The notes under the pieces: model-generated | The model's input: only the letters and a program-made list of their open reading frames with translations | Told to the model about the DNA's origin: nothing | Databases searched by the model: none | DNA from: Echinarachnius parma | Lineage: Eukaryota > Echinodermata > Echinoidea > Clypeasteroida > Echinarachniidae | Direction: 5' to 3' | Length of the DNA: 64,000 bases | Assembly (NCBI GenBank): GCA_037951105.1 | Contig: JBAMJV010002048.1 | Span: 1 to 64,000, forward strand | Shown here: in pieces, positions 28,971 through 45,348 of the stretch | How the letters are laid out: each line of letters starts with the position of its first letter | How positions within the stretch are numbered: the first letter of the stretch is position 1 | Program-made: the position numbers and the translations under genes

Positions 28971-31900
28971 CTGATGTGAAGTATGGGAAAGACCAAAGAA
29001 AAGAGAATTGTTAAAAGTACTAGAACAGAATTTAGAATAATTTGACTGCGCAGCGTCAAAATATATGCCATCGCCTATCTTGGTAACCCACTTCATTGCG
29101 GAGGCCTACAAATTTGTAGAGATTTGATCACAAACTGAAAGAAATGAAGCATTGTAACAATTTTGTCTTCTTTCGAATGAGGCAGCACACCTTCTATGCA
29201 AAATCGTGCAAGACATGGATCATGAACTATAAATAGCCACCATTACACAATGTTCTTTTACAACTCTAGAAATCATAACAGGACACTGGATTATAAACAA
29301 TATTATGATATTATGATAAGCGCATGTTACATGTTTTGCACTGAACACTTACCATACAGTCCCAGAGATGGAGTCATTCTGTTGGCGCCACGGTCTTGTC
29401 TCAAAGATAGCATCACCGTTGACATCCAGCCAGCTTCCCATTGAGCGAAGACGCTCCTCAAAGATCGGCACGATTCGACCATCTGCAGTCGGTCCAATGT
29501 TCATCAGCAGATTGCCATTACAACTGATAGAGGAAAGAATAACAGAATGTATGTACAATGAGATTCCACTGATTCAATAATCTAAAAGGACTAGAAATTG
29601 TTAATTCATAAATGGCATAATGCTCATGTACTGGTGCTTCCATCAATGTCTAGCTAATGGCCAGTGGAGCATTGCGACAGTTTCCCCAAGGACTTCTGGT
29701 CAATGGTAATTCAAACCAAGATATGTTCTTACATGCACATCATCATCATGTGCCCATCATGTGTCTTTCATGTGCCTACCTCACAGTAGAAGCTAGCAGC
29801 TCGATAAGCTCATCCATGTCCAGATAATCTGCCAGTGGAGCATACTGCCGGTATCCCCAGGACTCCTTGTCAATGTTCATATATCAAATATGTTCCCCAT
29901 GTGATTAACATGTGACCTTCATGTGACCCTCATGTGTCTATCATGTGTCTTTCATGTGCCTACCTCACAGTAGAAGCTAGCAGCTCGATAAGCTCATCCA
30001 TGTCCAGATAATCTGCCAGTGGAGCATTGCGACGGTATCCCCAGGACTCCTTGTCAATGGTCATACAGTTCTCCCACTTGTGTTTCTGTAGTACTCCTGC
30101 AAAAGATCACAAAAATCAAGATGTCTTATTTTCATCCTCCAATACAAAAACTAAATTGTATGATTTGTAGCATTTATAAACAGCCTTAAACTATCTTATT
30201 TCATACAAACAAAATAACAATTAGAATCCATTGATTATACTAAGATTTTGTAATGCACGAAGTTTTTACTAAGAACTGATTAAAGATTGTAATGTAAACA
30301 TTGTAATATATTATGCCTATTTTTTAAAAGTCATGCACAGAGCTCGCTTCTTCAAATGCAGTCATTGTAATCATTCACATTTTACACATTATTTTTTTGC
30401 TGTTTTCATTTCTGCCCTGCAGATGATGTTAATGCTTTTCATACTTACAATTGCATATTTTCATATGAAAGGCAGAATAATATTTTTCAACAATAAAATG
30501 ATCAACAAATCAAATAAATGTATACAATATGTGTACTATCAAATACTGTTCAATTAATAATAAACACAATATTTTATTTACAAAACAAATAAACAAATAA
30601 ATGAGTCAAAGCAAAGCAATGCAAAACTTTAAACTGGAGAGAAAATGAAAATAAAGCAGGGGAGAAAGAGAAAGAGAAAAAAAACAGCTAAAAAAGGTGA
30701 ATGATACTAGTCTAGTGTATGTTTAGTATGAGTATATGATTAGACACACAGGATAAAAGAAGGTGAAGAGTGATTATTAATACAATTGCAGATCTATATT
30801 GTAAAAACTTAAAAGAAATGAACATTTAGTGTGTGATTGCGAAAAATATGACATGACTAGAGCACGGAGATTGCCACATCTAAAAGTAACAACAAATTAT
30901 AAATAAAACAAAACTGTTCTAACTTTAAAAATGCATGTAATATATTGTCAACATTCAACATCCAACAGTAGCCTACATGCAGAGATCATTACTTGTACTT
31001 TATATCACCTCTCATACAGTCAGAGGAATTTAACTAGCAATTCAATTTGCTGTTTTGTTTTTTTACATAACCAGCAAGTGTACTCGGCTAGCAAGAAGCA
31101 AACTCAATAAATGATTATCCTGGGGAAAGCTTATTTTCTTTGCTCATTTTCATTTATATCATACATAACATTATATTACATCATATTACATCAAGGTTTA
31201 ACATAACCATGCGTGAATCGGTCTTCATATGCATAGAAGCTTTTCTTTTAATATTAATGCATATCACCATCAAAGGCATTAATTAGCAAGCAAGAAAACT
31301 CCATTCATGCTAACGTACCGGGATTGAATCGGTCGTCACACGTATAGAAGCCGCCATGTTTACATGAGACACCCTGTCCCCACCGGTCATTGCTGACTAT
31401 GGTGTCCTTCACGGGACTAAAATCAAACCATTTTTAAATTTATATTTGTACATGTTTGTTGGAACACCGATATCCACAATACTCAAATGTGATGTACTTC
31501 CATCATTATGCACATGTATCTAGGGTCCACAATATTTGTTCAATCGATAGTCCTTTGTGAATTCATGTAAATAAGCAGAACTAATTTGTTTTTAGCAAGT
31601 TAAATGAGAAATAAGATAATTTTCATATACAAAACTTAAAGGGGTAGTACAGTTTTGGTAAGGCTGAACTTTAGTAACCAAACCTGGACAGTAACATTAT
31701 AAACTAATAGTTATAACTCCACCATGCTCAAAAGGTATACAAAATTACAAACGACTAAGTAAAAAGCCCGTTATCATTCAAAAAGAGCCATTAAAACACA
31801 AGAGGGCGCTTTCTAAAAAGGCATTGGTTTCAACCATTTTTCATACAAAATAATGCATGTGATGTTTTATTGAAATAATGATTAAATAGAGAGATCATCA

Positions 31901-34900
31901 ATAACTATTTAAAAAACGCTTTTGAACATTTTTGAAAAAGTGCGAGCATTTAAAAAAAATTTTGAAAAATCAGCTAATTATTTGGGCCCAAATAATTATA
32001 GGCTCAGATATATTTATTGATATTTCAACCGTTTCTGGGTCGATTTTGACCAAATAAAGTTTATTCTGCCATTAAAATTGCATGTTCTCTCAAATTCGAC
32101 ACTCAGTTTTTCATTACCTCACAACAAAATTGTGATGTGCAGCGCCCTCTCTACCAAAACTAAACTATCCCTTTAACGTGAGTTGCTCGCCAGATTATTA
32201 GATAAAGAGCAAAACTTGGAAAAATCATGCCGCAAAGTAACACATTTTGGAATAGATGCAGAGGAGTAAACATGTGAAACCAGAATGAATCCTTGCTCAA
32301 TTTTAAGTGCATTGACATACCAGGACTGAATCTGTCCATACAAGTGTAATAGCCACCGTGCTTACACCTGTCGCCTGCTCCCCACCGATCATTTGTCACT
32401 ATGGTATCCTTCACGGGACTAAAACAAAAACAATTTGGTTGAATGGTTGAAAAGCAACCTCACAAATATAAAATCTATCATGGGAGAGCCTTGTAATTGC
32501 AATGCAATGCAAGTACATTTTAAATTGATATGAGGTTTGGTGCTCTATTAATAGATGATGAAATGAGTGAATATTTTTAGTCAATACGGAAAATAAGTAG
32601 CACAAGATTAAATTCATGCAAGTAAATGTAAAATGGACACAAAATGCAAAAAGTACACATGGAGCTGACGTAGAGATGAAACATTGTCATGTGCTTTGAG
32701 CACGGAGGCCTCTCAAGTCTCAACATACCGGGATCGTATTTGTCAGAACAAGTGTAATAGCCACCGTGCTTACACATGTCGCCCTGTCCCCACCGATCAT
32801 TCGTCACTATGGTATCCTTCACGGGACTAAAAACAAAAGCAGTTTGGTTGAATGGTTGAAAAGCAACCGCACAAATGTTAAAGCCATCATGATAACACAT
32901 ACATGTATTATCCTTTCCAAATTGATCAAGCATCACTATGGTCATTACCAGAAATTTAAATTGGCCACTAGCAACTCTTGTATGATGAAGTCTATGTTGG
33001 AAGTTTATCTGATGTGTCGTTTTGGCCACCTGAAAGTAGAGCTAAAGAGAGAGCCCTGTAATTGCAAATTTGCAATGCACAATCAATTTTTAATTGATAC
33101 GATGATTGGTGCTCTATTAATAAATGAAAAAATTAGTGAAAATTAGGAAATAATCTGAAAATAAGTACACATAAGATTAAATTACGATTAGAATAAGATT
33201 AAAGTACGAGTACATGTTAGACCAACATAAACAATAATTGAGGATGCATGGAGTTGACGTAGAGATGAAACATGGTCACGTGCCTTTAGCACATGCAGAG
33301 GCCACTTAACATACCGGGATGGAATCGGTCCCCACAAGTGTAAAAGCCACCATGCGTACACATGTCACCCCGTCCCCAACGATCATTCGTCACTATGGTA
33401 TCCTTCGTGGGACTAAAATGAAGAGAATATGCTTTAAAGTACTAGTAGCAATGGATAAATTGGTCACTATGGTATCCTTCATGGGACCAAAATGAAAATA
33501 TGAAAGTACTAGTAACAATAGATCAATTGGTCACTATGGTATCCTTCATGGGACCAAAATAAAAAGAATATTATGTTTCAAAGTACTAGTAGCAATAGAT
33601 CAATTGTCACTATGGTATCCTTCGTGGGACTAAAATGACGAGAATATACTTGAAAGTACGAATATCGACAATAATATCCTTGGTGAGACTAAAATGAAGA
33701 GAATATGCTTAAGAGTATAATAACAATGGATCATTTGTCGCTATGGTATCTCAGTGATTGTTTACAAATGATATGGGGGCATCTCTTATTCCCCCCCCCC
33801 CCCCCCCCTTTTCTGGCCATTTTCTGCTTATAATTGCACGGGCTGTGTTTTTTATTTTATTATTCTGTTGCCCAAACTCAAAGTCGGAGTGCGGCTTTTA
33901 TGCTGGAAAGTATGGTATATTATGTTTCCATTTCCTACACTTTTGTAAATTCTTTGTACACATTAGTAAACAACTGTTTGAAAACAAATGTTGAATACCT
34001 GCTGTTGTACAGCCAGGCCAAGAACTCTGTGCTGTTCCAGTATGTATCATTGGCCTCCCAGTCACCATCCGACCATAACACCTCCGGCTGGTATGTCGTA
34101 ATGATCTCCAGCAGCTCGGGCCATAGCACTTTCTGCAAATTGGTGGAAAAAGTACATGAATTTTCAAAATACATGTTATCTCTTTTTATCCACACTGAAA
34201 ATTAAATAATAAGTACAACGCATTTACTGCACCAAAGTGTTTTTTTAATGGTTATTTTGTCAAACCTGTGTGGTGACCACCTAACGGAAGTAAGAAAAGT
34301 GGCCACTGAAGAACATATTGCTTTTCTCTGCAGGGGATCACTTTCCTGTGAAGGATATATAGTGACAGATTGATATGTTGCTAGTAGTACTTTCAAACAT
34401 GTTCTCTTCATTTTAGTCCCATGAAGGAAATAAGTGTTTCTTTGCTCCTTGTTTCTTTTCTGGTCAGTTTCCTTATGTTTGAAATACATTATTTTCATCT
34501 ATAATAGTTGTGGGGGAACTTGGCCTGCTAGCACACACCATACAGATTCATGCATTGCTGTTGCAACCAAAGTACTATTGGACAGTAAGGTCATTATTTT
34601 TCAGTCCCGTTCCCCTGTAGCCTGTTCAATTCAAATGTTTTGCTAGAAGGTGGTCGAGCAATGTAAATGGTCATACTAGGGTATGACCATTAATGCACCA
34701 TACACACAATTTATTTGGAGTACACCTAGAGTACATAGACAATGCATGGGTGGCAAATCTCTGAACCTTACCGGCCATGCATTGTCAATGCACAGATTGC
34801 TCCACGCAACAGTATAGTACTTTCTGTGTGAGTTCCTCTAACCAAGCTCCCCTGGCCGAGTTCCCCCGCCACTCTAGAACAATAACAATTCCACAGGTAT

Positions 34901-44881: not shown

Positions 44882-45347
44882 TTAAAGGGGTAGTTTAGTT
44901 TTGGTAGAGAGGGCGCTGCACATCACAATTTTTGTGTGAGGTAATGAAAAACTGAGTGTCGAATTTGAGAGAACATGCAATTTTAATGGCAGAATAAACT
45001 TTATTTGGGGCCCAAATAATAGATGATTTTTTCAAAAAATTCATAAAAATGCTTACCTACACTCTTACAAAAATTTTCAAAAGCGTTTTTTAAATAGTTG
45101 TTGATGATCTATCTACTTAATCATTATTTCAATAGAACATCACATGCATTATTTTGTATGAAAAAGGGTTGAAACCAATGCCTTTTTAGAAAGCGCCCTC
45201 TTGTGTTTTAATGGCTCTTTTTGAATGATAACCGGCTTTTTACTTACGTCGTTTGTAATTTTGTATACCTTTCGAGCATGGTGGAGTAATAACTATTAGT
45301 TTATAATGTTACTGTCCAGCCTTACCAAAACTGTACTACCCCTTTAA
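44882..45347. mobile_element. MITE family 1 copy
   Basis: TTAAAGGGGTAGTTTAGTTT at the left, TACCCCTTTAA at the right; reverse orientation relative to 31637. Directly abuts a family 2 MITE. Confidence 0.88.
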
Positions 45348-45348
45348 A

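Follow-up and report, generated by a model that had tools for sequence, protein, structure and literature searches.

Four tandem versions of the exon encoding the acid/base residue in an alpha-L-fucosidase gene of Echinarachnius parma: a probable mutually exclusive cluster

The window analysed here, i.e., the 64,000 nucleotides at positions 1 to 64,000 (forward strand) of contig JBAMJV010002048.1 from the echinoid Echinarachnius parma (assembly GCA_037951105.1), contains two genes for alpha-L-fucosidases, gene A and its sister gene B (Table 1). In the same assembly, the mitochondrial COX1 shows AAA at a site that the echinoderm code reads as Asn, and tRNA-Arg, an ND4L-like frame and COX2 come after it, which fits an echinoderm. 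Gene A carries four intact versions of its fifth exon, E5a to E5d, which probably form a mutually exclusive cluster. By its domains and catalytic residues, the predicted product of gene A is an animal-type GH29-A alpha-L-fucosidase, and activity on fucosides is predicted: it matches PF01120 (Alpha_L_fucos) with 461.4 bits and PF16757 (Fucosidase_C) with 94 bits (cut-offs 25.2 and 25.6, respectively), and its N-terminus, judged by eye, looks like a signal peptide. The best solved relative is human FucA1 (7PLS; E 3e-179, nearly end-to-end alignment), with which it shares the domain layout, the nucleophile Asp, the acid/base Asp and the acid/base loop. A check of the spliced frame showed that gene A is complete, giving 461 amino acids without a stop when any single E5 is used.

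The initial annotation had described four intact 98-nucleotide exons of the same phase between a constitutive exon ending at 33999 and another starting at 30096, and these coordinates, neighbours, open frames and splice sites were confirmed, the acceptors reading TTTTAG before a, c and d and TTTTTAG before b, and the donors GTATGT in a–c and GTACGT in d. Similarity among the four copies is far beyond chance, with 72–85/98 nucleotides (73–87%) and 24–26/32 amino acids identical in pairwise comparison, and all of them retain the NDRWG and HGG(F/Y)YTC motifs, as had been noted. Between the copies lie introns of 488, 310 and 904 nucleotides (from the coordinates). They thus show the three features by which, according to passages of a prediction study, mutually exclusive exons are recognized (PMC3228551), i.e., homology of neighbouring internal exons (here between E4 and E6), similar length (98 nucleotides in 4/4 copies), and compatible splice sites with a common reading frame (4/4 copies). 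In the same passages, these features are reported for 0.56% (90/16180) of the non-mutually-exclusive exons of the fly X chromosome (PMC3228551).

Table 1. Features of the fucosidase genes in the window
Feature	Coordinates	Strand	Remarks
Gene A, GH29 alpha-L-fucosidase	40950-28715	minus	8 exons, one of four E5 used; 461 amino acids
Gene A E1	40950-40595	minus	splice sites and frame checked
Gene A E2	39207-39101	minus	splice sites and frame checked
Gene A E3	35039-34909	minus	splice sites and frame checked
Inverted copy of E5 acceptor and exon start, intron 3	34437-34335	antisense to E5	84% complementary over 70 nucleotides
Gene A E4, constitutive, upstream of array	34132-33999	minus	nucleophile Asp in LWSDGDW
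Decayed E5 5' pieces, at least four in tandem, upstream of E5a	33750-33729, 33629-33598, 33553-33521, 33486-33459	minus	roughly 70-nucleotide repeat
E5a, intact, 98 nucleotides	33412-33315	minus	AG/GT, open, phase 2 in / 1 out
Decayed E5 copy between E5a and E5b	32942-32867	minus	0/300 shuffles match its score against a
E5b, intact, 98 nucleotides	32826-32729	minus	AG/GT, open, phase 2 in / 1 out
E5c, intact, 98 nucleotides	32418-32321	minus	AG/GT, open, phase 2 in / 1 out
E5d, intact, 98 nucleotides	31416-31319	minus	most divergent copy; weak acceptor; phase 2 in / 1 out, open
d-like E5 3' fragment, about 78 nucleotides past the end of E5d	31240-31214	minus	0/300 shuffles
Gene A E6, constitutive, downstream of array	30096-29964	minus	second half of acid/base loop and Glu289 equivalent (HKWE)
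Gene A E7	29523-29353	minus	splice sites and frame checked
Gene A E8	28970-28715	minus	splice sites and frame checked
Sister gene B	58332-49098	minus	466 amino acids, open
Gene B E5, only intact copy found there	52511-52414	minus	Cys pair lost, catalytic Asp kept
d-like E5 remnant, gene B intron 5	52350-52305	minus	score 33 against d, 0/300 shuffles

Beyond the initial annotation, decayed E5 copies were found at 33750-33459, 32942-32867 and 31240-31214, and intron 3 was seen to contain the E5 acceptor region in inverted orientation (about 34430-34314). A peptide search of the genome returned ten E5 copies in total, all within fucosidase genes, and an E5d DNA query against the whole 1.2-Gb assembly gave at least three matches (a lower bound), two at the gene A array and one on another fucosidase contig. 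The array might in principle be a misassembly or a collapse of alleles, and diverged haplotypes may have been kept as separate contigs elsewhere in the assembly (C1076 and C5745). However, the four copies differ at 13–26/98 nucleotides, their introns are unequal in length and two-copy arrays lie on two other contigs, which makes an assembly artefact hardly credible and nearly settles this concern.

The array had been placed between the nucleophile exon and the acid/base exon, which follows the older assignment of Glu289 as the acid/base. In passages of a 2022 cryo-EM paper on FucA1, this residue is rejected in favour of Asp276, which sits on loop 274–288 (PMC9548408). In the alignment to 7PLS, the equivalents of Asp225 (nucleophile) and Asp276 (acid/base) are both present in the gene A protein, the latter 51 residues past the nucleophile in CEDKF, i.e., at E5 column 28, where Asp is invariant in 10/10 E5 copies found in this genome. 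By alignment, therefore, the catalytic acid/base Asp is encoded inside E5 rather than in E6. Every E5 version supplies this Asp, NDRWG, HGG and loop residues 274–280 (the first 7 of 15), and since the loop is split between E5 and E6, the choice of an E5 version exchanges its first half. The variable columns among E5a–d are 2, 8, 14, 16, 17, 19, 23, 27, 29, 30 and 31, corresponding to residues 250, 256, 262, 264, 265, 267, 271, 275, 277, 278 and 279 of human FucA1. Residue 275 adjoins the catalytic Asp, 277–279 lie in the acid/base loop, and 262, 264, 265 and 267 precede the Asp. The E5 of gene B has lost the Cys residues at both column 18 and column 26, and this joint disappearance suggests that the two pair into a disulphide near the acid/base loop; the word "disulfide" is absent from the main text of the FucA1 paper (PMC9548408).

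The reading frame constrains how these exons can be joined. Inclusion of a single E5 gives a 461-amino-acid reading frame in 4/4 cases, skipping of E5 leads to a stop after 256 amino acids, and all double, triple and quadruple inclusions (11/11 combinations) lead to a stop after 277 amino acids, at the third codon beyond the first copy. Only messages with a single E5 are readable through. The earlier statement that one copy keeps the frame while zero, two or three break it was thus correct, whereas the suggestion that all four joined would also keep it holds for length only, as this message meets the same early stop. Likewise, double inclusion and skipping terminate early in the two-copy genes C and D. 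Multi-E5 and E5-skipped messages would be removed by nonsense-mediated decay, in which case the productive mRNA would contain one E5 even under a loose choice of splice sites.

Based on these observations, E5a–d are best explained, with reasonable though not high confidence, as a tandem-duplicated cluster of mutually exclusive exons enforced by this frame trap, as the initial annotation had proposed; the homologous tandem exons of equal phase are observed, and exclusive use would follow from the frame. E4 would be spliced to exactly one of E5a–d and that one to E6, and the versions would keep the chemistry, with the isoforms differing in aglycone fit, pH or stability. The same frame behaviour could also serve as a valve of unproductive splicing, in which joining several E5 copies is the default and the resulting frameshifted message is degraded, tuning the output of the enzyme rather than its isoform. 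Such a valve would agree with the early stop of every multiple inclusion and of the skip, with the acceptors of a, b and c, which score near the constitutive mean and make joint inclusion plausible, and with intervening introns that are too long for steric exclusion. However, a valve has no need of a conserved catalytic core, which is present in all four copies, and this explanation is considered quite improbable.

The conservation of that core is the main evidence that all four copies are kept. The core was defined as the 16 columns at which human FucA1, gene E and copy 1 of gene C all agree, with a–d excluded from the definition. In line with the earlier description of differing residues around a fixed core, all 11 variable columns lie outside it (P 3.4e-5). 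With gene B added, whose E5 lacks both Cys residues, the core shrinks to 14 columns, and the corresponding P is 2.5e-4. Replacement types among E5a–d number 0 in the core and 17 outside it, compared with 7 and 7 silent types (Fisher P 0.0013), and each copy carries 4–5 private replacements, none of them in the core (P 0.02–0.05 each). The nonsynonymous divergence (dN) of the core is 0 in 6/6 pairs, while its synonymous divergence (dS) is 0.11–1.2. Outside the core, dN is 0.30–0.40 in young and old pairs alike (non-core dS was computable for 4/6 pairs), and this similarity hints that the non-core residues may have changed early and then come under constraint.

Two further comparisons concern the exons as units. 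Over 232 aligned bases of the a/b intron there are 10 gap events, compared with none over the 98 nucleotides of the a/b exons; such counts vary with the alignment penalties. Among the extra exon copies of genes A–E, counted at E 1e-3 or better and with E1 left out for genes C, D and E, 5/11 of the E5 copies are full length compared with 0/20 for other exons (Fisher P 0.003, or 0.012 when D is dropped as a possible allele of C); E5 is the shortest of the exons compared, so that its full-length survival is slightly easier.

Several observations weigh against the retention of four working versions. The core columns, although not taken from a–d, were chosen after a–d had been seen. In the b/c intron, a single gap event was counted over 64 aligned bases, so the gap-free b/c exon pair says little. 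In codon maximum-likelihood analyses on one fixed topology, the dN/dS ratio (omega) is 0.63 on the four terminal branches, which is indistinguishable from 1 (P 0.48), and 0.47 across all array branches (P 0.16). The a/b and b/c exons (83/98 and 85/98 identical) are no better conserved than the adjoining introns (191/232 and 57/64). The acceptor of E5d scores 1.7 compared with a mean of 7.4 and a minimum of 0.1 among 25 constitutive acceptors, and the donors of E5a, b and d score 5.6, 5.6 and 4.9 compared with a donor mean of 8.3. Where gene A has four intact E5 copies, one was found in its sister gene B. In addition, there are 20 partial copies of other exons (E2, E4, E6 and E8) across genes A–E, and since exon pieces are duplicated so frequently in these genes, the E5 array could be a by-product. 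Finally, no purely intronic docking/selector pair was found in six scans, in which 2–17/24 shuffles were as good and which covered intron 3 in full and the introns preceding a and following d in part, with selectors sought within 250 nucleotides under three selector definitions; a pair that is weaker or lies farther apart is possible.

Much of this would be expected if one E5, perhaps b or c, were in use and the rest were duplicates that have not yet decayed, for which the branch omega, the near-equal divergence of exons and introns, the weak E5d acceptor, the partial duplicates and six decayed E5 pieces all speak. However, none of the 11 variable residues lies in the independently defined core. 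E5d, moreover, is old, with a silent distance to a–c of 0.84–2.26 (each value resting on 32 codons) compared with a dS of 0.30 between genes A and B outside E5 (403 codons), yet it is intact with AG and GT, and the retention of full-length copies is limited to E5, in gene A and in C/D. Disuse of three of the four copies is therefore regarded as rather unlikely, although of the alternatives it is the one that deserves the most weight.

Partial exon duplicates were also recorded individually. In gene A, E6 has two partial duplicates at 29881-29780 (95% identical) and 29713-29641 (84%), neither of them a complete exon, and E8 has one incomplete duplicate at 28512-28406 (78% identical). Truncated tandem pieces of exon 2 occur as two 5' pieces in C1076 (L031 7705-7623 and 7512-7429) and as four inner or 3' pieces in C10069 (L034 about 3117-2534), the latter contig having one E5. 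Intragenic exon duplication is thus frequent in this fucosidase family.

How one copy might be chosen was considered at the level of the splice sites and of RNA structure. Steric blocking and U2/U12 incompatibility are ruled out, the former by intervening introns of 488, 310 and 904 nucleotides and the latter by sites that are GTATGT or GTACGT...AG throughout. The inverted copy in intron 3 forms duplexes with the acceptor regions of E5a–d at −79.5, −51.7, −57.8 and −44.9 kcal/mol, respectively (0/200 shuffles each), while the acceptors of E4, E6, E7 and E8 remain within the shuffle range. In a 30-nucleotide scan, the weakest of the four E5 sites still reaches −32.8 (0/24 shuffles). Under a relaxed docking criterion, by which one arm may compete for several variants with 3' splice sites included, this arm would count as a candidate docking site. 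It could steer the choice as a single arm in competition for the four 3' splice sites, of which one would be hidden each time, and a published model derives competing arms from the duplication of a single arm (PMC6071210). However, the complementarity follows from shared descent through an inverted duplication, and it may have no function in splicing. The partners of the arm further include the gene B E5 acceptor (−53.0) and three decayed E5 pieces (−52.3 to −56.9), it lies one intron farther upstream than known docking sites, and no minus-strand match to the E5 profile was found in gene B between 56000 and 49000. Furthermore, three sites stay free when one is masked, so that masking would give choice and not exclusion, which would remain the task of the frame trap. 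A role of the arm in the choice is accordingly judged improbable. The 70-nucleotide inverted arms at 34359-34428 and 33401-33470 (84% complementary) also flank the constitutive E4 and could promote circular RNA or E4 skipping.

The distances among the E5 copies bear on the age of the array. Those from the E5 of gene B to a, b and c are 0.33–0.47 and that from d to the E5 of gene B is 0.78, again with 32 codons behind each value. With E and C/D as the root, the best nucleotide tree takes the form (((a,(b,c)),B),d), in which d falls outside a–c plus B with 83% support, while the unconstrained codon tree differs in placing C/D beside c (support 19). Monophyly of a–d, by which the array would be younger than the A/B split, is less likely, yet it is not rejected by the approximately unbiased test (P 0.175 with nucleotides, 0.308 with codons). 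The flank upstream of the gene B E5 matches that of c (0/500 shuffles) and b (1/500) and, more weakly, those of a and d (13/500 each). The intron 5 remnant of gene B matches d, whereas its scores against a, b, c and the E5 of gene B itself are reached by 78–264/300 shuffles; it is one hit among five queries, and in a profile search its E is only 7–9. Taken together, a state with two E5 versions, d and the ancestor of a–c, may be older than the duplication that gave rise to A and B. The simplest history would then be that gene A expanded one side of this two-version ancestor into a, b and c and that gene B lost d, although gene conversion could confound it.

A repeat resembling a miniature inverted-repeat transposable element (in gene A AGGGATAGTTTAGTTTTGGTAGAGAGGGCGC ... 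CCCTTTAA) occurs at 32176-31636, 53113-52693 and about 58900-58690, in or beside both genes, and a blast of L035, from contig C10145, also touches 45117-45348 and 5918-5681. Orthology of its copies between c and d in gene A and upstream of E5 in gene B is disfavoured, as their flanks differ by eye and they are probably separate insertions.

Outside the window, contigs C1076 and C5745 each contain two intact E5 copies that are 93 and 94/98 identical within the contig, with counterparts identical at 97/98 between contigs. To one side of the gene, the sequences of both contigs run collinear (82–99.9% identical), whereas to the other they have only four short patches in common, and they may represent either alleles or recent duplicates. 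Given the distance of these copies from a–d, their duplication is apparently separate from that of the gene A array. On a further contig, C10145:22500-23861 (L035 1-1362) contains an E1 of gene B, 92% identical along 1062 bases, together with part of its intron 1, with no further fucosidase exon detected by tblastn in nearly 19 kb beyond it, and is perhaps a broken allele or a partial duplicate.

Swapped tandem exons have been described in other enzymes. The alternative exons of ketohexokinase (KHK) are named 3A and 3C. Both gene A and KHK are enzyme genes with a tandem-duplicated, exchanged exon, and passages of the KHK paper place the catalytic Arg108 in both versions (PMC9741552). However, KHK has two versions, whereas gene A has four; in gene A, moreover, the residue concerned is a glycosidase acid/base, and exclusive use is putative. 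Exons 6a and 6e of COQ-2 in helminths, annelids and molluscs likewise exchange a segment near the active site and are linked to the choice of substrate from one gene, according to excerpts of PMC7434440; that enzyme is a prenyltransferase with two versions backed by transcripts and a genetic test, in contrast to the genomic evidence for gene A. In the docking-site/selector clusters of Dscam exon 6, 14-3-3zeta and Mhc, multiple homologous exons lie together, and the conventional mechanism pairs a single docking site within an intron with an intronic selector next to each variant (PMC6071210). Gene A likewise has one RNA segment that is complementary to all its copies, whereas this arm is antisense to 3' splice sites, lies one intron upstream and has no accompanying set of intronic selectors among those scanned. 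Unlike human FucA1, gene A has four alternative versions of the loop-bearing exon. In the open-access literature, as covered by titles and the beginnings of abstracts and with most subscription papers outside this scope, no alternative E5 exons of a fucosidase were evident. Since KHK and COQ-2 are already precedents in enzymes, the E5 cluster would join a known class, at an unusually central place.

The most far-reaching possibility, to be held only tentatively and as an improbable one, is a four-position switch, in which tissue- or stage-specific enzymes are made, the antisense arm steers the choice and the frame trap guarantees exclusivity. If so, the isoforms could serve different fucosylated glycans, e.g., on gametes; in ascidians, a sperm alpha-L-fucosidase is reported in egg-coat binding, according to passages of PMC9265791. 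Within the family, the full-length duplication of E5 suggests separate origins in two fucosidase genes of one genome. Exchange of E5 would place the general acid/base of a glycosidase in four different settings while leaving the chemistry unchanged. Were these versions expressed, nature would in effect have supplied a series of four mutants of one enzyme's acid/base loop, with which the dependence of aglycone preference and pH profile on the loop sequence could be studied.

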